Made by a program: the position numbers and the translations under genes. From NCBI GenBank assembly GCA_032358255.1, contig JAULBX010019965.1, positions 62,001-126,000 of the forward strand: a stretch of 64,000 nucleotides of DNA, given 5' to 3'. Below the pieces are notes generated by a model. It saw only the letters and a list, made by a program, of their open reading frames with translations. It did no database searches and was not told the DNA's origin. The DNA comes from Heterotrichella gracilis. Its lineage: Eukaryota > Sar > Xanthophyceae > Tribonematales > Xanthonemataceae. Below, in pieces: positions 3,347 through 62,800 of this stretch. Numbering within the stretch: position 1 is the first letter of the stretch; each line of letters opens with the position of its first letter.

Positions 3347-6300
3347 ATGCGCGGGTACGAAAGGCGGGGCCCATCGCCTCCACGCCGGTTTGGGCGGCGG
3401 GCTAGCCCCGACTATGGTGACCGCCGCAGGCCTCGCAGCTACAGCCCCAGCCCGGAGCGGTTCAGAGGATCCCCCCCACCACCCAAGCGCTACCGCCGGG
3501 GAGGACCAAAGTATGTGGGCCACCCGCGGTGCTCTTTTAGCATACATTGATCACCTGCGTGGAGTAGGAAGTGTGGATTACTTGCAACTGGGCACGATTA
3601 GGCAGTAGCAGCCATCCCTCATCACTGACATCCATCTTCATCTCTTGGCGTTGTGTATGTTGCTGACGAACTCTTTGCTGCTCCCTCCCGCGCAGTGACC
3701 GTTTTGACCGGAATGAGCGCCATGACCGGCGGTTTGCAGACCCGTATGGTGGCCCGCGGAGGGATGGGCGATACCGGGAGCCATCCCCACCTCCCAGGTA
3801 CACACCAGAAACGCACCACGCCTGCTGTGGAATAGTGCAGCTGCAGAATTACACAGACGCGCAGCTTATGGCAGAAACCACTGTGGTTAGATCGGAGCTC
3901 AGCAGCGATACAAAAGGCAGCTCTGTATGTTGAAAGTGATGATGGTGCAAACCTGTTGTTTCCCGATGGTTCTTTGATGGGCTGCTGCTTGCTGCGCTTT
4001 GTTTCACCCAGTTGCCACGTACCTGGCCTCAAAGGTCACACAATGTGCTATTGCAGTACGCATTTTGAGCTTGACCAACGTTTGTGCAACGCTGGTGCTG
4101 TGACTTGCGCCAGCCTTGCAAGTAATGCTCACGCTTTACAGCAGCTCTTGCCGTTTGCTCCTTTTTGGTTACCACCATCACTCTATTGCCTCAGTTCCTA
4201 TACTGCCTCTCACAACCGGGTACAGACGTCTGGGAACGGTAGGGTACCAAAGCAGCCTCTGTTTCACTCCACCCCCCTCAGTACTCCTCCCAGCAACGCC
4301 AGCACCCCACCTCCGCCCTTCCCTCCCATTTTCAACCCACACACCCCTGCAGGAGAAACTCCTCCCCGCCAAGGGACAGGCCCATGACGTACAAGGAGTA
4401 CATGATGACCCTCCCCGACCACATCTCCCCCCAGGAGGCGCAGGAAGCCTACAACGGCTACATGTATGACTGGTGGGGCTCGGAGCTGCGGGCAGAGTTT
4501 GAGACCCACCGGGAGGAAGCCGAGATGCACCGGCTGTACGATCCCCGCGACCTGAAAAAGCTGGTGGAGATTCGCAACAAGGCGTCCCAGGCGGCAGCCA
4601 AGCAGTTTGGGGAAACCCTCGCGGAGGGTAAAGTGGAGCTGACAGTCGAGTCAGCCGCAGCGGAGCCCGGCCCTGGCCCCCAGCTGTCAAAAGAGGAAGC
4701 TTCCACCTCCTTCCTGGGCTATGTGGAGCCCTTTGAGCGGCCGCCGCCGCGGGAAAAGCCGCCCACAGTCCCGCCTGTCTTCTGGCAGCCAGACAGGGTG
4801 GCGTCAGACCTGGCCCTCTCCCGCCAGCTCATCGTCCACCTAGACGCAGAGAAGAGCATCACCGACAACGCCCTCCTGCTCCCTCCTGCCCCACCCGCTG
4901 CCAAGGAGGAGGGCGGGGAAGGGGGCGAGAACGGGTCAGCGCCCGAAGCAGCGGCCCCCGAGGCCCAACCCTACGACGAGCAGGTCAAAACCCTAGACCA
5001 GCAGGTGCTCTACCTGTGGAGGGTCCATGGCATCGACTACTATGGCGGACTCGAGCTGTGGGAGGTGCGGGACCCTGAGCGCCACACCTACAAGCTGCAC
5101 GTGCGGGGGGAGAAGCTGGGGGAGGGGCAGGAGGCGCAGGCTGCAGGTGGGTGGGTGGTGGAGTGGGTGGTGGGAGGATGTGGGCTTGCGCGTAGCTGCG
5201 TGCAAGCCATGTGATGGTTGGGATTGGAGCTGGTGCATTGTGATGAGCATGGTTAGTGTGAGCTGCTAATACAGATTTCTGTTTATGGTACATTATATGC
5301 ATGTTTTGAGCTTTGTATCCAGATGTAGTTTTTGCTTAGCAAGCGATCAATGTATGACGCATGTCCAGCCCGTCTCTCACAGCATCCGCTCTCCCTGCCA
5401 CCTACCGCCACCTCCCACTTGCCCCAGATGATGAGGGGAAGGCTGCAGCTGAGCGCGTGGATGGCGCATGGTCCAAGCGCCTTGAGGAGCCCGATGCGCT
5501 GGAGGCCCCGCTGCAGAAGGAGCGCGTGGAGACGCATGTGGAGGAGTTTGTTGAGTCTCAGATACTCAAGCTGGATGACAACAAGTGCGTGCAGCGGGGG
5601 GTGGGCCGGGGGTGGGGTGGTGATGCCCTGGCCTGGTACACTTGATAAGTTGTAAGAGTATGGGAGTCAAGCTAGACACCGGCTTGTGCCGTGCATTAAG
5701 GGGGGGAAATGTTTGACGATGGCAGGGAGTGTGGCTGCGCTTGTGCTGTGTTTGCGCCGCTTAAATTTGCCTCTCAGCTCATCTTTGGGGCAGAAATTCA
5801 TCTCGAGGGGAAGAAATTACCTCTTGGCAACATGTGTTATATCGCCCACCTTGCTGCGGCTGATGCGTGCATGCGTGTGCCTGTGCAGGTGGGGCAACAA
5901 GCTGAGCCAGAAGCTGTTTGTGGGCAAGGACTTTGTGGTGAAGCACATCCGGCTGAAGCACGCGCATGTGGTGGAGGCGGATGTAGACAAGGTGAGGCAG
6001 GCAGAGATGGTTGTGGGGGGGTGCACGTGGGGGCTGGCGGTGGAGGGAGGGGTGTGCAGGGCACGCTGCAGGCAATGGGGCCCTTGGGGTTAGGCATTTG
6101 GGAAGGGGCACACAAGGTTGGTATTGGTACATCACACCTGCAACGTGTCATCTTAGCATTGACCCTGGTCTTCTGCGGAATAATGTGGAAATGGCGTGGT
6201 GGCAGGGCGCGCAGACTGCAGCAGCAGCAGCAGTCTTGCCGCCATGTCATTCTATATGTGTACGCACAATATCAGGTCGGGTGCTGACAAGACGCTTGGT

Positions 6301-14914: not shown

Positions 14915-15364
14915 TCAAGCTGGTCCTTCCGCAGTTCGTTTTGTTGCCCAGGCTGCGTCCACCTTTTGCCTTATGCTTGCCGGTGTGCCCGCCATCAGCA
15001 GCGCGTGATTTAATCGGGCAGCGTATCCGTGTTGAGACTTCTGGGCAGCCAGTGCCGAGATAGCTTCCAGCAGCATGATTGACCTCACTGAGGTTGGCAG
15101 CTGCTCAAGGTGCTCAAAGGTGATGAGACAGGAATTCCGCGTCCCACTGTGCACCAATAAGTGAATGCATGAGGTCATTAACCTCGGAAGCCTGAAACGG
15201 TCGGCCAGCAGGACAAACTGCTTGAGCTTGTCAATGTCGGGGTCCGATAATATGTCGTCCTGTGTCGCGCGTTCCTCCAGCTGCTCCTGCAGCAAAGCTT
15301 GCAACGCGTGGCAATCCAGGTACTCAACGGCTGACAGCAGGTCAAAAGCCCTTTGGGGTAACAA
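14915..15364 (-). CDS. orphan BTB-associated (BACK-like) exon, C-terminal
   Basis: A single terminal exon of 149 codons plus stop follows a good acceptor (CCTGCAG at 15370-15365, minus strand). It begins LLPQRAFDLLSAVEYLD. It aligns with the second exon of the BTB protein at 31.7-33.1 kb: DLLSAVEYLDCHALQALL against DLLTAAEYLDIQPLQKLL, then LADRFRLPRLMTSCIHLLVH against LGERFKLVELLTLCVNYMI, then TSVRSIMLLEA against STTRSIILLAA. That region follows the BTB fold and resembles a BACK-like helical segment. No BTB exon is visible upstream: the next coding signal, only about 240 bp away, is the last exon of the coiled-coil gene. The exon is therefore either a remnant of a BTB gene or the true last exon of the coiled-coil gene; phase 0 on both sides allows this. 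Confidence 0.6.
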   Translation of the reverse strand: MLPQRAFDLLSAVEYLDCHALQALLQEQLEERATQDDILSDPDIDKLKQFVLLADRFRLPRLMTSCIHLLVHSGTRNSCLITFEHLEQLPTSVRSIMLLEAISALAAQKSQHGYAARLNHALLMAGTPASIRQKVDAAWATKRTAEGPA

Positions 15365-15602
15365 CTGCAGGCCAACAGACAATCAAGTCAGTGTGCAGTT
15401 TTGCATTGGCACCTGTGCTGTAGCATATCATTCCAAATTCCAGGCAGGGTCCTGTACGGGAAGTAAATGTGGTTTGTAAGCCGGCCCAACAACTGTGCTA
15501 AGTGATGAAAACAGCAAGTGATCTCTTCTGGATAAGCTGTCAATCAAAGTCAAACCAGCGTTGTCGGAACCCTGGTCTGAACCCAATTGCCCAATTTGGT
15601 AC

Positions 15603-18600
15603 CTGCAAGCTTGTGTTTGTGCCATATTGGAACGAATGCCCCTTTGGTGCAGTCAGGTGTATGCAGAGTGGCAAAAGGCTGCCACTACCCCCCGCCAGCC
15701 CATCTGCCTGCTCCAGCTTCTCCAGTGCCTGCTGCTGAAGTCGCTCCACCTCGGCTATGCGCATCTGGAGCGTGGCCTGTAGGGTGTTGTGCCAGAAAAG
15801 GGGGAGGTTTTAGGGCTTAAGGGTTTAATTATCCCTAACAAGTGCAGCTGCTCTACCTCGGCTATGCGGAACTGGAGAGTGGCTTATAGAGTGCAGCACC
15901 AGCAAGGGGGGTGAGTTTAGGGTTCAGGGTCTAGTTTAAACCCTAACCAGGGCAGCCGCTCCACCTCGACTATGCGGATCTGGAGCGTGGCCTGTAGGGT
16001 ACAGCGCCAGCAAGGGGGGTGAGCTTAGGGTTTAGGGTTTGTTTAAACCCTACACAGTGCAGCACCAGTGAGGGTGGTGAGTTGCCAACCCTGGTAAATG
16101 GCGCACCAAAATTTGGAGAGGAGCAGCAAAGCAACAATAAGCCATTGTGTGTAGTAACTGGGAGCTACGCAGTGCACCTCCCCATTCTTTTGTCAATTGC
16201 GGCATCTGTCGTCCGCACACGCACTGTGCGTGCGCACTGTGCGTGCAGATGACAGATACAGCGGTAAACAAAAGAATGGGGATGTGCAACGCGTAGCTAG
16301 AGGCACCGTGTGGCTTTTTAATCCCTATTTTCCACAGTTGACAGTAACGTTTGATGGACCAAATTTGGTCCCTGACTTTGTGCCCTGGCACAAAAACCAC
16401 ACAAAACCACACACTGCTAAAAGACTTCAACACGAAAAAAATTCTGAACTCGAAATCTAAACATAGATCTCAACCAGCAATGCACCCGCTGACCCCCCCA
16501 CCTGAAATTACCCCACCCTACCCATCGTGACGTTCCCCGCCCCTCCTCCATCCCACCCCCCACCTGCGCCTGCTCCCTCTCCTCCTCCAGCGCATCCACC
16601 CGCTCCAGCGCCCGGGGGATGAGCACATACCCCAGCTCCCGCAGCCTGCAGGCGGTGCGGTCAGCCGCATGCAGGGCATGCCGCAGGGCCTCCACCAGCT
16701 GACGGGCCTCGGATTGGACCTCATCTAGGGCGGGTGGAGTGGGGGTGGGGGTCGGGGGAGTGGTGGGGGTGGTGGATGGCGGAGGGTGGGCGGCGGCCGC
16801 GGCGGACCTTTGCTTGAGGGACTTTTGCTCGACGAGCCGCAAGGATATCAGGTCCTTGGGTGTCTGCAGTTATTGGGCAGTTTCACTGCACGGGCGTGGG
16901 GTATTATGGAGCGCTGAGCAACAGCTATCAGCCATGGCCCGCCATGTGTCACGAATCCATAGTTGACTGTGCGCGCCATTACCGTCCCAGATTTTGGGGA
17001 ACGGAGGCGCAATTCTACACTTGCACACCCTTACTATTGTATCCCCACACACAGAGAAAAAAGGTGGAATGCAGATACTTACTGACTCAGTCACATGCGT
17101 TTCTAGAGCTGCGTCAAATCAGCAGCCAATTACAATCCTGCAGGCTGCTGATCCGATGCAGCAATCAGAACCCACATGACTGAGTGAGTAAGTATATGCA
17201 TTCCAGCTTCTGGAGCCAGAGTAGCTTGCGAACATGTGCAGAAGGTGGTCAGTACTACACAAATTTGTATTATTTATTAAAGGGGGGATAAGACTGAGAT
17301 CTTATTTTTATTATATTGTACCTTTGGTGCACTTTCCCCTTCCGCCTTGGCCACACTCATCTCCTCAGCCCTTGCACCCTGCTCACCCTGCTCAGCCCTT
17401 GCACCCTCCACCTCGGGTTTGATCCACTGCGCCACCAGCGCCGCCTCCCGTGCCTGGCGCGCCACCCCCTGCTGGCGCACTATTACCGAATGCAGCTCAT
17501 CCGCTACCTGGTCCACAAACAAGAATGTGCTCAGATAAATTTCTACTTTATTTTCTATTTTCTATTTTCTATGAATGCGTATATCTATACTTTTACACAC
17601 GATTACCCTAATTTACACAAGTTGCGCATCTGCCCTTGAACAGGCGGGACCCACCCACCACCACTGCAGCGACTATGATGGGTGGGTGAAGGAAGATGAG
17701 TGAATAAATGGACATTGCTCCCCTGTCCACTATTTAGCCACCCCTCAACAAACACGTTGTGGTCCAAACCACCCCAAACATCCTACACAGCCCGATATTC
17801 CCGATCCCAAGCCTTCCTCATTCCTTACCTGTTCCACCCAAGTGGTGGTTTTACCCCATCCAACCACTTTATTACCAATTCCTCACCCTTTCTCAAACCT
17901 TTTCCCCCCTGCCACACCTGTTCCACCTCAGCAGCCCGCGCCTGTGCGGCGGCTGCGGCAACCTTGGCCCGCGTGCTGTGTCCCGCGGCGGCTTGCTGGA
18001 GTTTGGAAGCGTTGGGTGAGCGCGGCGGCAGGGGCTGTGGTGAGGACTGGCTGGCGGTGGTGGGGGCGGTGGCCGGTTCACGCTGTGGCAGGTACTGTGG
18101 TGGGGGTGGCTGTGGTGGGGAGGGGCTGGGAGGGGCAGGGGAGGTTGCGGTTTCACTTGTGGGAGGGGAGGTCTTGGATTCAACTTCCTCCACAAGACGG
18201 GGCCTGGGGATGGATTTGACCACTGCCGGGGTGTGCAGCCTCTCCAGAGACAGGGGCTCCTGATTGGCCTGTGGGGTGTCAAGGGGCACAAAAGCCGGGG
18301 TTTGCTCAGGACTCTCTGGAGACTGTTCCGCCTGTGGCTGGGGTTCGACCTGGCTGGGGTGCGCTGGGCTGGTGGGTGTAGGTTTTGCCTGTGCCTCGGC
18401 CATGTGTGCCATCGCCCCAGCTGATGGAGCCAATGGGGATGATGGATCAGCACCTGATAGAGCAAGCGGTGATGATGGATCAGCACCTGATGGAGTAATC
18501 GGTGATGATGGGTCAGCGCCTGATGGAGTAATCGGTGATGATGAATCAGCGCCTGATGGAGTAATCGGTGGTGGTGGATCAGCGCCTTGGTTGGCCCAGC

Positions 18601-24605: not shown

Positions 24606-27600
24606 ATGAATAGGAAGCTTTTGGGTGAGTACCTTATTACCAGCATCCATCGCATGGTGCCTACACCGCACAACTGCGCCTCCTGTGCAGCTGGTGTACG
24701 TATGTTGACAGAAAGCAGCACTCTCCGGACGCTAACTTCGGTTAATGCTAATCTCTCGAACGGTCCCCTACCTGCAAGTTTTGGCCTCCTCCAACCTATA
24801 TGCATGCATCGCCCGAGTTGAACCTGGTTCGGAGAAGAACCTGTTTTGTGTCGACAGTTGCGTTACTTTTTGTTGATACAGTTTCCAACACTCTATCCTC
24901 CTGCCCAGTTCCAGTCAACCCGCATCCAACCGCTGCATTTGCCACATGCCACACCCATGCTTGACAGGGTGTTCGAGTGACGCACTGCCCTTTTGCACGT
25001 TGCAGTCCAGCTTCTGCACATGCCAAATTCGCTGCAAACACGAGCCCAGTTGCACTACACACAAAAAATTTCGTGCACCATTTCCATCTTTGTCAGCCAG
25101 TTCAACCCTGGGAGTTGGGCGTAATGGTCGAAATGGCTGTCTAGAAAATACCGCTGTTCAAGCACCCGGTAGCCAGCCTCTGATCAGTGGTTGTGTGTCA
25201 CTGCCCAGACCCCTTCCAGGCGCTCAACCTGCCAGAATCCATAGAGGGCTTGCTGGACCACGGGCACACGCGCTGTGTAGCGTTCAACAGAAGGGGGACC
25301 CTGCTGGCAGGTGCGTTGGGCTTTGAAATCCCCAATACCAAGCACTACAATGCCCAATACCAAGCAAAACTATTGGCCACTGGTAACCACACATTCGCGC
25401 CAGTCACCAAGCTTGACGCCTTGATGCGTAGTGTTTGGGCCTGTTCTATGGGTGGGTTTTGGTGTTGCCTGCATTGCCCACATTTCATGGCATCATGACA
25501 AAAAGGCGGATAAACTTCAAGTTGTCACAGCACCTAGAACACACGAGAGCATGCACCAACTCCCTGCAGCGTTACATTTAACGCTGTGCACGTGCAGCGG
25601 GGTGCGAGGACGGCCAGGTGGTTGTCTGGGACTTCCTGACGCGGGTGGTGGCGAGGGTGTACAAGGGGCACAGGTAAGCCTGGCGCACTGGCGCAACACA
25701 GCTTTGGCAGCGCCAGCAGCACACAATCAGCACAGATGCATGTAGTTCTTGGGCGGGGATTGCTGCAGCCTGCATGTATTGTACTGGAATTTGGGAATTT
25801 AGACCTGTCACTTAGTCGCCATCTGTTTTGCTTCCCGACCTGCCTGAGCATCACAATTAATCTCAGAGTAACGGCCACATGCTTTCATACACACTGCACA
25901 TTGTGGGTACCTCCTGGCGCATCAACAGTACCCCGCATTCGTGCCCTGCATCGCTAGGATTCCGCGTTTTTCCTGAAACCCAAAGAAACTGAAATTAATG
26001 AACGCAGTTTGGGTAAACAGCGTGAAAATGACACCTTCCTTGCTCCCCTTCAACCCTCTGCAGCAAGGCGGTGTCTGTCGTGATGTGGACCAGGGATGGC
26101 AAGCAGCTGTTCAGTGGGGGTGATGACTGCCAGCTCATCGAGTGGGACGTGGAAAAGGGCACACAGGTGGGAAGGGGGGGAAGTGCAAATTTTCCCAAGG
26201 GAGGAGGGTGCAAAATTGTGCATATCCCATACATGCGCATGTACCATGCACGCAAATGGAGTCTCATTGGATTTTGTAGTGCATTGCACAGGTATGGCGG
26301 CAGGGTTGTGTGTCTCGTTGATATACTTGACGGCATGTATAATGGCAGATTATTGGTGTTTCATATGAAAATGTGCATGCCACATCGTCAGGGGGGGTTG
26401 TATGCAGCGCTGGCCAGGCGCTATTGTCGGCATACAAGGGATACAATTTTCTTACTTCAGCTAGTATTGTCTTCAGCTATTAATGTCTTCATCGATTATT
26501 AACTTCTTCAAATAAGAATATCTTACATTACTTTCTTCAGCTATCATCTGATGCCTATTGTCAATTTCCTGGATTTATTTTCTGATCCGGCTTTCTCTTC
26601 CCTGCACCCAGACGCGCAGCATCGCCTTCCCCTCCCCAGTCGTCCACGCAGTATTACTCCACCACAAGCCGCACCTGTGCCTGGTCAGCCTGTCCCAAGG
26701 CGCCCCTGTGCTGCTGGATCTGGTCAGTGGGGAACGAACACAACTGCCGGTGCTGGCGGCAGGTGCGAAACGGAAACCCTTGGCAGGGTTTGTGCGTAGT
26801 AGCTGATTACATGTTGTGGTGAGGTCAAGTGGAGCTTGGATCAGGGAGCGGGTTGGGCAGAATCCTTTGTGAGGTGAAGTGTTTCCGCCTTTGTGTAATA
26901 TCCCACAAAAATTCTTTATTAGTAATTCATTATATGCATATGTACATCTCCCATATCGCAAAGGGTGAACTGGGAGGGCAGCCGCGCCAAGCGCTACGTT
27001 ACCTCACCCAACTCCATCAGTACCGTATCCTATTATTCTGAGCCATGGTAGGGTTAGGGTTCAGCATCTCAAGGGCGATCTGTGTGGTGTGCAGAGGGGG
27101 AGGGCAAGGGCGGCCGCGCCAACAGCGACGCCGCATCCCTCAGCTCCATCGCCACCTTCAACAAGGATGGGGATGTGCTGTACGTGGCCTCAAAGGGGAC
27201 AATACTGGTGCTGCAGCGGGAGGGTATGGTCATCCACGATGTGGTCAAGGTGAGGCGTGCCTGGGTGCACCACCTGGTAGGGTTGAGTGCTATGACAGCG
27301 TGCTTGAGGGTCTCGCACTGCCTGCAAGCTTTGCCGACATCCTCTTGACTTTTGATGCATCTAGTTAAGGATATGACTAGTATACCCCTCCCATGCCGAG
27401 GTTGCAACATCCTCCCAAGACGGCGTGCATTTAATGTACGCTGATAAAAAAATAAAACAACTACCGTAGCACAACCTTCCCCATGCTGACGGGCCCCTGT
27501 CCTCCCCTGCCTGCTGCCAGGCGTCCGGTGGCAAGGATGGGCGGGTGGTCAGCATGGTACTCGACAAAAAAGGGGAGTACCTTCTGGCCAACTGCGCAGA

Positions 27601-30600
27601 CAGGTCCATCCAGATGTTCAAGGTCACACCCCTGCTGGCGCCACCAGGGTCGCGGCGCAAGACCTTCACCCTGCCAGACGCCAAGTCAAGGATAGTGACC
27701 ATGAAGGTGCGCTGCTGGAGGGTCAACCGTGGCGCCAGTTCTAAAACCCTAAACCCCAAGCATTGACCTGTCAGACGCCAAGTCGCGGATAGTGACCACG
27801 AAGGTGCGCTGCTGGAGGGTCAACCTTAGCGCCAGTTCTAAAACCCTAAACTCTAGAATGCCATGATGGGCTTACATCGTTAAGCCAAACTGAAAACCCT
27901 AAGCGTGTCACGCAGGACCACCTTCAGTTACCGACATGGGGTATGCCCTCAATTTCCGTATCTCCCATCCCCACCCCCACCTCACCCCCAAACCCCACCC
28001 TGCAATCCCCACTCCTCCCTCCTCTGCAGCTCCCCAAGCAGGGCTCCCTGCTTCACCCCAGCGAGCCCATGCGTGACCTGCACCGCAAGCTCAGCAGCAA
28101 CTCCCACCACCCCCCTGCACCTTCGTAAGCAAGGATCTCTCCTCAAATCCCCCCCCCCCAAACCCCCTGATCCCCCGTCTTCAGCCCCCACTGCACCCCT
28201 CAATCCCCACTCCTCCCTCCTCTGCAGCTCCCCAAGCAGGGCTCCCTGCTGAACCCCACCGAGCCCATGCTTGACCTGCACCGCAAGCTCAGCAACACAG
28301 TGGAGCCATGCCAGTGGGGCGCGGTGTGCTTCACTGCCGACAGCGAGCACGTGGTGGCCGTGACCAGCGCGGACCACAACGTGTACATTTGGGACACAGC
28401 GGGCAGGATGGACAGGGTCATTGAAGGTGTGCGCTAGGGTTTGGTGGTGGGAAGTGTTGGGGGTTATTGTGGTGTCCATCGGGCAGGATGGATAGGGTGA
28501 TTGAGGGGAGGTCTGGGGTATGCATTAGGGTGTGGGTGTGCTTCACTGCGGATAGCGAGCACGTGGTTGCGGTGACCAGCGCAGACCACAACGTGTACAT
28601 TTGGGACACAGCAGGCAGGATGGACAGGGTCATTGAGGGTAAGGGCTAGGGTGTTACTGAAGTGCGGATGCTGCTTGGGTCGACACGAGTGGTTATTGCC
28701 ATAAGAAACGTATTTTCTCTCCATTGGCCATTGATGCACCCCCCGTCACCCGGCATTAACACTCCCAAATGACGAGCCCTGCTATGAGCTTTTTGTATTT
28801 AAGTGTGCCGAAAGCAAACCCCACACCAGCCCTCTACTCCACGCACCCATGTGACCCAATATGGTGCGATCGCAGTGCCTGGTGAAATGTGGACGGATGT
28901 GCTTCCTTCTCATGCTGTTCTATGCGCATGGCAGTGAACCAACTTATCAATGCCTCCACACATAAGTGTGTATGTGCCCCATTGAACACTTCTGATCCCA
29001 AATTCGATGTCCAAATCCGCCCTGGATGGCTTCCGGTATATTTGATGTGGAGTTCAGAAGTCAGTGCACAGGATATGTGATACCGCTATTTCAGCATGAG
29101 TCTAAACCCTTATCCTTACCCCTGTCTGGCCCCCAAGTCCCAAGGAGGGCGCTGTGGCTGTGGCGAGGCACCTGCTGAGAGACTCTAAACCCAATACCCT
29201 AAACCCTTGGGCCCTTACTCCTGTCTGTCCCCCAGGTCCCAAGGAGGGCGCTGTGGCTGTGGCGTGGCACCCGCTGAGAAACCTGCTGGCGTCTGTGGCC
29301 ACATCGGGCAAGGTGAGGAGGGCACATGCGCATGCACATGCATGGCCACAGGCACAGTGATGCCATCAAGCAGCAGCATTCCCATATATGCAGCAGGAGC
29401 ATGAGCAGCATATTAGTGGAGGGCCCCAGTATGCACAGCAGTGGCTGTGTGCTCGGCTGCCTGATGAATGTCGCCACATGGGGCGGGCAACTTGCGCAGC
29501 ATGGTTTGCGATAGCTGGCCGGATGTGCAGCATGTACAGCTGCATACCATGACCAACCAGCCCAACCTCCTTCACTCCAATCCCAATTCAATTGCACCGT
29601 CCTGGTAAGCTGTCCCACATGACCTGCCCTGCTGCACCCTGCAGATCTACATTTGGGAGCACATCTACAAGGAGAACTGGAGCGCGTTTGCCCCCGACTT
29701 CGAGGAGCTGGACGAGAACCTGGAGTACATCGAGCGGGAGGACGAATTCGACATCAATCCCAGGGATGACGAAGCCAAGGGGGCTGCGACAGATGGGGCC
29801 CAAAACGGGGAGGGCGAGGCGGATGTCGACATCGAGACCTGTGAGGAAGTTAAGGTGTTCAGCAGCGATGACGAGGAGGATGAAAAGGGGCTGTTCTACC
29901 TGCCGGTGGAGATCCAGAAGCAGGAGCTGGAACCTCAACCTCAAATGGAGGTGGCTGTTGAGGGGGAGGCTGCCGCAGGGGAGGTTGCTGCAGGGTAAGG
30001 CACCAAACCCTTTAATATTTTCCCATTAAAACCCGGAGTTGTTGTTGGCAATTAGCGTGGTGTGGGATGAGGTTGTTGCTCGCGCTTTGTGGCAATTTGA
30101 ACATGTCACATGCATGCGCCACTGTCCCAAACTTATTGGGTGATGCTTGGCGTTAGGGGGTGTATCCCTGCCCTTTGCCGTAACATGCTGCCTGTGGTAT
30201 GGGTCTCAGAGTGGGTAATGCTGCATGCTGAGCTTGGCTAGCCTCAATGTCTGTACGGCAGTACTTGACTTGATGCAATTGGCATGCAGCTGTGGGCAGC
30301 ATGAGTCACCTGATTGCTGCACACACAAACTCGTTTGGAAAAGCTGTGCAGCCTGTAAATTGCGCACTGGAAGATTTATAACAGTTGAGGCCATTACCCT
30401 TCTATCCATTATGTCTCCTGTCATACTTCTGACAGAAGGACCCGCTGGATGCGCAGGGATGCAGCTGCGGCTGCAGAGGCATCCGACCAGAAGGCCATTG
30501 TCAACTCGGGAAGCCCCCTGGACGGCGGGACCAATGGCGATGCACGGGAAGGGGGGGAGGATGACGAGGGGGGGTCCTCGGAGGAGCAGTCCTATGGAGC

Positions 30601-59878: not shown

Positions 59879-62800
59879 ATGTATCCAAGCACTGCTTATC
59901 GCCTGTCTCAGCTGCACAGGCACCTCCAGCCAGAGCCGTGTCGCCAAGATCCAGGCACTCTTTGCACGAATCACGTCGCCTCATCTGCGTCTTCTCCTCC
60001 TGACACAAACAAGTTGTGCAGCGCTGAGGAGGCAGCGGATTGCATTCCGGATGACTGCTGGATCACGGTCCGTTTGCCCACGTTGAGATACGGCACTGGG
60101 GTCTCATATGAGTTACCTTGCTACCTGTAAAGTCGTCACCCACGCAGTACTCAAGCTATTCTGGCCTATTTCTTGGGTGCCACAATGCATGCATATATCC
60201 GGACCTTGCAATGCATGCATGTCAGCAACTTTGTGGCTCAACAGCGCCACACGCTTAAACTTCCCAATCCAATCTTTTTCACAAATTGTACTCATTCACT
60301 GGCTCCTCTCCAATCCTGCCACCATCCACCACTTTCCCCCCCATGCAGTTCTTCCATTGCCCCCCTTGCACCCCCCCTCCCCTCCCCCACCAGGTGTCCG
60401 GCTTTGTAGCCACAGGCTGCCCTGACTACCTGCTAGCCGCCCTACGATCCAGATTCGACTCCAGCGCCCACCCCGCATCCCTGAAGCTCATCCTGCCAAT
60501 CAGCTCGGGTGATCGCGCCGGCAGGGGGCTGGACCGCCTGGCTGTGCCTGGGCTGCTGACCAAGCTTGTGTACGCATGGACAGGTGAGGAGGTGCCAAGG
60601 CTGGTGTATGGCCCTTGTAATATGTGATGTGTGGTATGCGCATGGGGTGGACTGGGCATTGGCGTGCTCGCTGGGCAACGGGCATGTGGACATGCGCTGA
60701 ATGGCTTGGAAGTCCAAATGGACACTGTGGTATGTCATACTTGCTCAGCGAGGCTGTCCTTTTGACATGGTTGCCTATGCATTCACATTGAGAGGGTAAT
60801 GCCATGGCAGTCAAAGCAAACACTTGCGACCAGCGTTGGCTAAATTATGTGGATGGGCCATGATCATGCCTAGCTTGCTGCCTGATGCATGAAGTTATGG
60901 TGCGGCGTGCTGTGCAGGCACATCTCCAGAGCTTTTGAAGCTGGTGACATCCAACCAGGTGCAAGCATGGAACCTGCCTGTCGGAGCAAGTACGTGGAGC
61001 ATTGCAAGGGCTCGTCGGGGTGGTGCATGCCTGGCTGGGGGCATGGCATGACATCTGCATTGTTGGTTCAGTAGAGTCTTGTTTGCCGGACCATTTTAAA
61101 TCAATTCAAGCCGCTGTCCCATGATCCAAACGCCATGATCTATCCACCTACATGACCCAATTCCATGATGCAGTCTCGCACATGATCCGGGACGCAGCTG
61201 CCGGGCGTGCAGGGCCCATCACTAAAATAGGCCTGGGCACATTTGTAGACCCCCGGGAAAAGGTAAACCCATTCCATCCCATGGTCCTGCGCGTCATTAA
61301 CCATGTTGACCTGCGCCCATGTTGCCTATAGTTAGTTAGTTACATGCATTCCAGCAATACAGCCAGATTAGCAGTCGGTCTTGCATATGCGGCGCCACGC
61401 AGCTCTTTCCTGGCACTGTTTGAACCACTTATTGATCCCACGCGACTTGAGGTCCTGCTGGAGTAGGTCAGCCCATGTGGCCCTTGGCTTACCTACCCCC
61501 TTTGCCCCCTCTACCCTACCAAACACCATACATTTAGGAACCCTATCGTCTGAGAAACGTACCATGCCAGGCATGTTGCCTGTGACCTACAACTATCCAG
61601 CTCATGTTATATTTTGTGGCAAGGTATCAATCAATATCATTTCTCCTAAAGAACTCCCTGTTGTTTCTGTCAAGGTGTGATGGTGTCGATGGCATAAATG
61701 TCCTAGTAATCTGCCTGGAACCTAGGTTTGGAAGCACAACATTGTTGCGCCTTGACACTGTGCACTGTGCTGTGGCTGACACCGAGACCGTACCATCTTG
61801 CCTGACCCCATCCTTGCTCCCAATTCACCGAACCACTGGACACCTTTGCGCCACTCCTGACGGGTGGTCCTTTAGGGTTGGGTGCGGGGAGGGGCACGGG
61901 CAGTTGTGGAAGTGATGTGGTGGGGTGATAGATTGCCAGCAATGTGGCGGTTGTGGCACTCATATAATGGATAGGCCACCTGCTTCCTCCCCACACACAC
62001 CACCCCAACCTTCCTCCCCTTGTCCCAGGGTGGGAAATTGAACGAGGCCACCAAGGAAGAGATCGTGGAGGTGGTGCAGCTGGGTGGCCGCGAGGCGCTG
62101 TGGTACCGCGTGCAGGGGCCCATCAAGGTGGCGCTCCTGCGGGCCACAACCGCTGATCTGGATGGCAACTGCTCCTTTGAGCACGAGCCACTGTACTGTG
62201 ATGCCCTCAGCCAGGTGGGTGACATGCATTCCCGCCATTCAGGAGTGGGTGCAAAGCTGGGTGTCGGGGTGAGGGAAGGTTTACGATGCCTCATGCGTAG
62301 AGCCACTGTGATGTGACGCACTTGGCCATTGGATGTAAAGTGGAGGGTTGCAAAAGAAAGCGTAAAATCAGATGGAAGGTGGGAATGGGAATGAGATAAG
62401 GATACCTCTTGTTCCATAGTGCAGATGCACTTTTTCAGTTACTGAGGCATCAAATGCGCAGAATGGGCAACTCCCTGGGCAGCACATATCGCTGACGCAG
62501 GCCTGTTGCGCAGGCTATGGCGGCGCACAATGCAGGGGGGATTGTGATAGTCCAGGTGAAACGGGTGGTGGAGCGCGGCCACCTGCCAGCCAGGAGTGTG
62601 CACATACCTGCGGTGCTTGTGGATAAGGTATGTCCTGCAATTGGGTTTATTCAGCTTGGAAACGAGTGAATGGTGTATGGCTCGCAATTTTTAGGGTTTA
62701 TGATTTTTGTCTACCGTATGCATGCAGCTGATGGTCTGCAAGGTGGTGTGCCTCTGCTGTTTCCCCACCGCCCATGTGGTGTCCATGTTGGCTTGAGAAT

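Follow-up and report, generated by a model that had tools for sequence, protein, structure and literature searches.

In plants, small tandem duplications reportedly arise from staggered DNA breaks, as described by Schiml in 2016. The CST-Pol alpha-primase complex, which also fills in telomere ends, makes fill-in duplications at staggered breaks (PMC8355091, in the part available). Telomeric repeats inserted at double-strand breaks have been catalogued in primates and rodents (83 human and 244 mouse loci), with duplication of the target as a minor class (6 of 130 events in rodents, 4 of 25 in primates), in the available part of Nergadze 2007 (PMC2246262), and direct repeats of 4–30 bp near intron splice sites are ascribed to break repair in that of Rogers and Bendich 2025 (PMC11782384). 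The present analysis concerns a window of 64,000 nucleotides (positions 62,001 to 126,000 of contig JAULBX010019965.1) from the alga Heterotrichella gracilis, in which five exon–intron junctions of an RbBP5 gene carry direct duplications. The best reading is that these duplications and others like them in the genome are repair scars of a known type, here with telomeric filler and a bias towards splice junctions. A probability of about 0.55 is given to the specific proposal that they record staggered breaks near exon ends, which were filled in and end-joined with the addition of telomeric repeats.

The structures are direct copies of segments of exon plus intron, mostly about 40–200 nt long, with the copy lying in the intron and with graded ages across the sampled genome; between the copies there is often a short tract of telomere repeats together with a few other bases. 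As in staggered-break tandem duplications, the copies are direct and adjacent, which is expected from overhang fill-in followed by end joining, but the telomeric filler, the concentration at exon–intron junctions and the evolutionary nature of the record distinguish them from the duplications in the available part of PMC8355091. With the insertions of Nergadze 2007 (PMC2246262), as far as the available part of that account goes, they share short internal tracts of telomere repeats, the use of the organism's own terminal repeat and a class with flanking duplication, but here 34 of the 84 tracts of at least 13 nt are flanked by direct repeats and there is the junction bias in addition; against the loci counted there stand 5629 two-repeat matches in 68.5 Mb here, a number obtained by other criteria and including overlapping matches and terminal arrays. 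Copies that cross an exon–intron boundary are also a feature of intron gain by tandem duplication, but those described here lie within existing introns, and no new intron is seen among them. The direct repeats of Rogers and Bendich 2025 (PMC11782384, in the part available) are likewise near intron borders, but they were looked for between the two ends of a single intron, whereas the present ones are aligned over at least 38 nt at one intron end and in many cases come with telomeric filler. In the open-access literature, as far as the available parts of it go, no description was recognized of junction-straddling duplications whose copies are separated by telomeric tracts, or of a genome in which they are this dense.

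The RbBP5 gene occupies 25.2–30.7 kb of the window. Ten hand-set exons, with the first exon left out, give an open frame of 548 codons, and a 140-residue portion of the product resembles human RbBP5 (5ov3; E 1.4e-30). The original prediction had placed a tandem partner at each of five junctions, and all five were found by a repeat search together with gapped self-BLAST, at 75–93% identity, the one at exon 6 being weak. Partners of 60–200 bp had been described; the partners exist, with somewhat shorter aligned lengths (44–126 nt). The duplications themselves thus stand, and the telomeric tracts between their copies had been overlooked. The features are as follows, in window coordinates and with a slash marking an exon–intron junction.

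26975..27150, plus strand: D6, weak direct repeat, 75% identity over 44 nt; its far copy, 26975-27018, is intronic
27049..27061, plus strand: telomeric tract TAGGGTTAGGGTT between both D6 copies
27107-27150, plus strand: D6 exon copy, just within exon 6 (acceptor /27095)
27670..27754, plus strand: D3 exon copy, crossing the exon 7 donor (27706/27707)
27744..27756, plus strand: telomeric tract AAACCCTAAACCC at the D3 copy boundary, covering the end of the exon copy and the start of the spacer
27767..27851, plus strand: D3 far copy, intronic, 93% identity, predicted donor of equal strength
27974..28099, plus strand: D1 far copy, intronic, 88% identity, predicted acceptor as strong as the real one
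28173..28297, plus strand: D1 exon copy, crossing the exon 8 acceptor (/28228)
28323..28440, plus strand: D2 exon copy, crossing the exon 8 donor (28426/28427)
28435..28531, plus strand: D2 spacer region, with telomeric tracts at either end and a third, partial exon copy at 28477-28507
28435-28442, plus strand: D2 spacer tract TAGGGTTT, overlapping the end of the exon copy
28525-28531, plus strand: D2 spacer tract TTAGGGT, at the other end of the spacer
28535..28652, plus strand: D2 far copy, 92% identity, with 7 synonymous and 0 non-synonymous differences from the exon part
29102..29183, plus strand: D4 far copy, intronic, 88% identity, acceptor weakened (AAG)
29185..29207, plus strand: telomeric tract CTAAACCCAATACCCTAAACCCT at the D4 copy boundary, covering spacer and the start of the exon copy
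29199..29282, plus strand: D4 exon copy, crossing the exon 9 acceptor (/29236)

D1–D4 are strong, with 88–93% identity in the gapped self-BLAST and all four passing an E value of 1e-3, a threshold that D6, found by the repeat search only, fails. The D6 alignment over its telomeric tract scores 23, and the duplication is graded as probable rather than certain because this score falls between two thresholds (at least 20 and at least 25) that are reached by 2.3 and 1.6%, respectively, of random non-coding points (n = 2500). The spacings of D3 and D1 make up 296 of the 521 nt of the intron at 27707-28227, and those of D2 and D4 make up 309 of the 809 nt of the intron at 28427-29235. Four of the five duplications (D2, D3, D4 and D6) have a telomeric tract separating their copies or placed at the copy boundary; D1 has none at the level of 7-mers.

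The search was carried beyond RbBP5 into the genome assembly (68.5 Mb, 903 contigs). A first sample of 244 kb comprised the window and 200 kb from elsewhere in the genome, less 20 kb of contig C1 that were excluded for a GC content of 0.37 and open reading frames (ORFs) that look bacterial by eye; a further 50 kb served as a hold-out, giving 294 kb in total. The loci on the 894 kb contig C1 (L002 and L003, GC 0.37) have ORFs that appear Bacteroidota-like, and by eye this contig is judged to be a contaminant or an associate within the assembly. The hold-out is valid for the cluster classes, for which thresholds were fixed earlier, while the simulation and the flanking-repeat test described below were devised afterwards. 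Self-comparison extended over 1.5 kb, and matches spaced by less than 60 nt (6 of 73) were set aside. Chance is excluded as the origin of the local direct matches as a set, because in the 244 kb there were 67 direct and 2 inverted matches spaced by at least 60 nt and the same self-comparison of 240 kb of order-4 Markov random sequence gave 0 matches. Among plus-strand matches at any distance, 58 of 83 are spaced by 60–300 nt, so the copies are direct and adjacent.

The 294 kb hold 77 duplication clusters with identities of 65.8–98.4%, in agreement with the suggestion that the process is recurrent and its products variously diverged. An assembly artefact is unlikely, as the copies are not uniformly near identical, and a mobile element or introner was rejected, the 54 spacers sharing just four short cross matches (17–28 nt). 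Where exon and non-exon are both represented within the duplicate pair, a cluster is termed straddling; there are 48 of these, with 10 intron-only clusters, 14 intergenic clusters and five with exon in both copies (20, 3, 2 and 1, respectively, in the hold-out). The clusters are unevenly spread, with 16 in one 20 kb stretch (SL016, comprising L016 and L017), 17 in another stretch (H240, comprising L024 and L025) and none in SL006. A few cluster rows are tandem arrays or low-complexity sequence, and some intergenic clusters look coding by eye. The exon labels come from a purpose-written gene finder trained on the same sequence, which recovers the RbBP5 exons yet labels some far copies as exons.

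The junction share is based on the 58 genic clusters, leaving the 14 intergenic and five both-exon clusters outside. Straddling clusters account for 48 of the 58 (P ~1e-11 against the simulation) and for 20 of 23 in the hold-out (P = 2.9e-6), so the excess of junction-straddling repeats that the original prediction had proposed to look for on a wider scale is present. A strict count, in which an internal junction has to be crossed, gives 36 of 46 (P = 6.6e-8) and 15 of 18 in the hold-out (P = 1.5e-4); it drops nine clusters that end short of the exon end and four at predicted terminal exons, one cluster being both. At four loci supported by homology (RbBP5, CAND1, a predicted SufBD plus NmrA-like-domain locus and an actin-related gene) the share is 21 of 25 (P = 5.1e-6). 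It is 19 of 21 when one locus is trimmed of its unsupported start, and both counts include the RbBP5 cases which prompted the study. The clusters are not fully independent. By the side on which the partner lies, 26 straddling clusters are of donor type and 22 of acceptor type.

A high share of this kind could also arise if tandem duplication were random and unbiased in its formation, with junction-crossing copies merely being the ones that are tolerated and survive. The shape of the segments is consistent with such survivorship: the aligned segment ends before the opposite end of the exon in 46 of the 48 straddling clusters, and it passes the exon end on the partner's side in 39 and ends short of it in nine. 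A simple circular-shift test of the junctions within copies, a much weaker test, also gives it some room (30 against 20.7 expected, reached by 63 of 2000 shifts). However, a null of random tolerated placements yields a straddling share of 0.326 in genes, and a forward simulation with the tolerance filter, neutral decay and the same detector yields 0.322 and 0.393 for two unit lengths, far from the shares observed by either count, making survivorship on its own an unlikely explanation. Detection bias was rejected as the source of the excess, since in the simulation it lifts the expected share merely from 0.26–0.33 to 0.32–0.39. GC content was set aside as a cause, without formal exclusion, at 0.605 in straddling duplications and 0.587 in random straddling segments; the values for intronic duplications and random introns are 0.541 and 0.513.

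The repeat TTTAGGG is identified as the terminal repeat because arrays of seven repeats lie at the starts of six contigs (within 200 nt); such arrays occur on five more, 11 in total. Telomeres of this sequence are in keeping with an alga, although a search for the RuBisCO large subunit gave no hit. Over-representation of 7-mers in the sample is strongest for TAGGGTT (189 against 21 expected), and other members of the TTTAGGG cycle also rank near the top. Two other 7-mers, CATGCAT (337 against 108) and TGCATGC (375 against 157), are likewise strongly over-represented (in 244 kb, the window plus L004–L021). Telomeric 7-mers cover 109 of 51648 exon bases and 1733 of 123547 intron bases, and two-repeat matches number 2845 + 2784 genome-wide against 2 + 3 for a reversed-pattern control. 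The duplication spans contain 755 telomeric bases where 181 are expected, a value reached by 0 of 2000 shifts (0 of 5000 for the hold-out spans). In the spacers, 6.6% of non-exonic bases are telomeric, compared with 1.1% in the background and 1.7% in the 100 nt flanks (294 kb; 0 of 5000 shifts). In straddling two-copy cases the density within the exon copy is 0 where the copy is exon and 10.2% where it is intron; the spacer has 6.8%, and the far copy has 0.4% where it resembles exon. Past the far copy it is 3.0 and 1.6% in the next two 50 nt bins, but 4.8% at 100–200 nt.

The tracts were also examined for repeats on their two sides (score of at least 16, telomeric letters masked). Direct repeats flank 77 of 344 tracts, representing about 63 places. 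The corresponding share is 4.0% among 2500 points drawn at random from non-coding sequence and 7.3% among 560 control points close to junctions but without a tract; inverted repeats flank one of the 344. The excess is present both outside the four densest stretches (27 of 197 tracts, against 50 of 2000 control points) and within them (50 of 147, against 189 of 2000). The neatest case, near position 8394 of L020 (SL020), has an 18 nt direct repeat around TTTAGGG units followed by head-to-head CCCTAAA units. Elsewhere in the window, a similar structure at 15736..16063 (plus strand) consists of three exon-like units of about 107 bp with TTTAGGG tracts and then CCCTAAA tracts. In L025, at about 5278-6031 (H240 15278-16031), several copies of an exon end are separated by telomeric tracts, and the gene finder reads this array as repeated VIRMTFEHEQDK exons.

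The order of events could be the reverse, and this is the main rival: telomere-like tracts already present in introns, and retained close to splice sites for some other reason, for example as splicing signals, would be fragile sites at which replication forks stall or breaks occur and template switching duplicates the adjacent exon end, with telomerase uninvolved in the duplication. Tracts do peak 10–40 nt inside introns (4.1–4.2% of bases, against 0.7–2.2% deeper), and even outside the detected duplications they are concentrated at this distance from the junctions (2.8–3.0% against 0.5–1.7% deeper). On the acceptor side they are mostly C-rich on the sense strand, like a pyrimidine tract, but on the donor side they occur in both orientations, unlike a splicing signal. 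The rival is also at odds with the flanking direct repeats (22% of tracts against 7% of junction-proximal controls) and with the head-to-head order of the longer tracts, and it is regarded as rather doubtful.

The original prediction had further suggested that such copies create introns or provide alternative exons, that is, supply new splice sites that are used. The far D3 donor and the far D1 acceptor score exactly as the real sites do (7.1 and 10.9), and the far D2 copy differs from its exon by synonymous changes only. Use of the far sites in D1, D2, D3 or D4 (in D1 also as a cassette exon) nevertheless brings a premature stop each time, and no clean acceptor with a suitable frame was seen by eye for D2 as a mutually exclusive exon. 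In three of 340 predicted introns the in-register match between donor and acceptor flanks exceeds the random maximum (38 of 80); by their coordinates all three lie within tandem-repeat runs, and a new intron bounded by two in-register copies is not supported. A greater length of duplication-bearing introns was rejected (median 323 nt, against 319 nt in other introns). In pairs of which a single copy is predicted to be exonic, mismatches at the first, second and third positions of codons number 139/883, 116/882 and 192/880 in the 294 kb (79/467, 47/466 and 98/467 in the first 244 kb), and between non-coding copies 787/4040, a pattern that, for the set as a whole, fits one constrained exon, its reading frame preserved, and one neutrally decaying far copy. 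Over the 48 clusters, and summed across three identity classes, there are 193 synonymous and 318 non-synonymous differences; under random change a synonymous share of 24.5% would be expected. The outliers are D2, at 7 to 0, and a CAND1 case, at 8 to 1, and in either the synonymous excess could be chance among 48 clusters; for the far D2 copy, which encodes the same peptide, a copy of a diverged allele, past coding use and chance are candidate readings. Taken with the premature stops, the neutral decay of the set, D2 excepted, makes newly used splice sites very improbable.

Under the proposed repair mechanism, events would begin close to the end of an exon, where a staggered break or a pair of opposite-strand nicks would produce complementary single-stranded ends; short telomeric repeats would be added to, or captured at, a broken end; and fill-in of both ends followed by end joining would leave a copy, telomeric filler and a second copy. 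Events internal to exons would be purged, while those involving one junction would be tolerated because the splice site beside the intact exon remains usable, and introns would gain sequence at their margins. This genome encodes a telomerase RNA-binding domain (G000 C626:23723-24513) in two exon-sized pieces (L027 and L028). The polarity expected for addition at 3' ends is a derivation made for this analysis. Among tracts of at least two repeats, head-to-head order exceeds tail-to-tail order by 13 to 1 matches, or 11 to 1 places. The tail-to-tail arrangement AACCCTA-N(0-30)-TAGGGTT of single repeats occurs 731 times per strand, against 14 for a reversed-pattern control, with many of the pairs 2–3 nt apart among the matches listed.

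Several observations weigh against repair with added telomeric repeats. Telomeric bases make up 6.0% (45 of 755) of the outer, intron-like portion of far copies, which a pre-existing tract as the break site fits at least as well; 267 of the 344 tracts have no flanking repeat at the threshold used; and when the hold-out is taken by itself the enrichment in spacers lacks significance, being reached by 409 of 5000 shifts. Mismatches in the hold-out (60/416, 69/416 and 94/413) are not lower at the second codon position than at the first, so the fit to neutral decay is rougher there. One-repeat tracts have no order bias (TAGGGTT..AACCCTA 738 per strand, against 731 for AACCCTA..TAGGGTT), and fusion of two telomerase-extended ends was therefore rejected as a general model, the head-to-head excess being found in longer tracts only. 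In spacers with a single orientation the tract is nearer the expected telomerase-extended end in just 20 of 43, and this lack of positional polarity goes against one-ended addition by telomerase. Because two polarity predictions failed and one held, telomerase is put forward as the putative enzyme and no more firmly than that. A broader proposal is tentative: introns may grow from their edges through telomerase-aided repair of recurrent breaks at exon ends, every event depositing a telomeric tract and a copy of the exon end that then decays, in which case intron sequence would largely be scar and its short internal telomere motifs fossils.

These duplications link small tandem duplications with telomeric repeats and splice junctions, and the near-identical decoy splice sites of D3 and D1 constitute a natural test of splice-site choice. 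If the 77 clusters of the 294 kb are scaled naively to the full 68.5 Mb, about 18,000 would be expected, from a sample that is small and uneven. The origin of intron sequence is an old question for which few events have been caught in the act; this genome seems to hold many, at graded ages, and break-driven accretion of introns, if true, would become countable.

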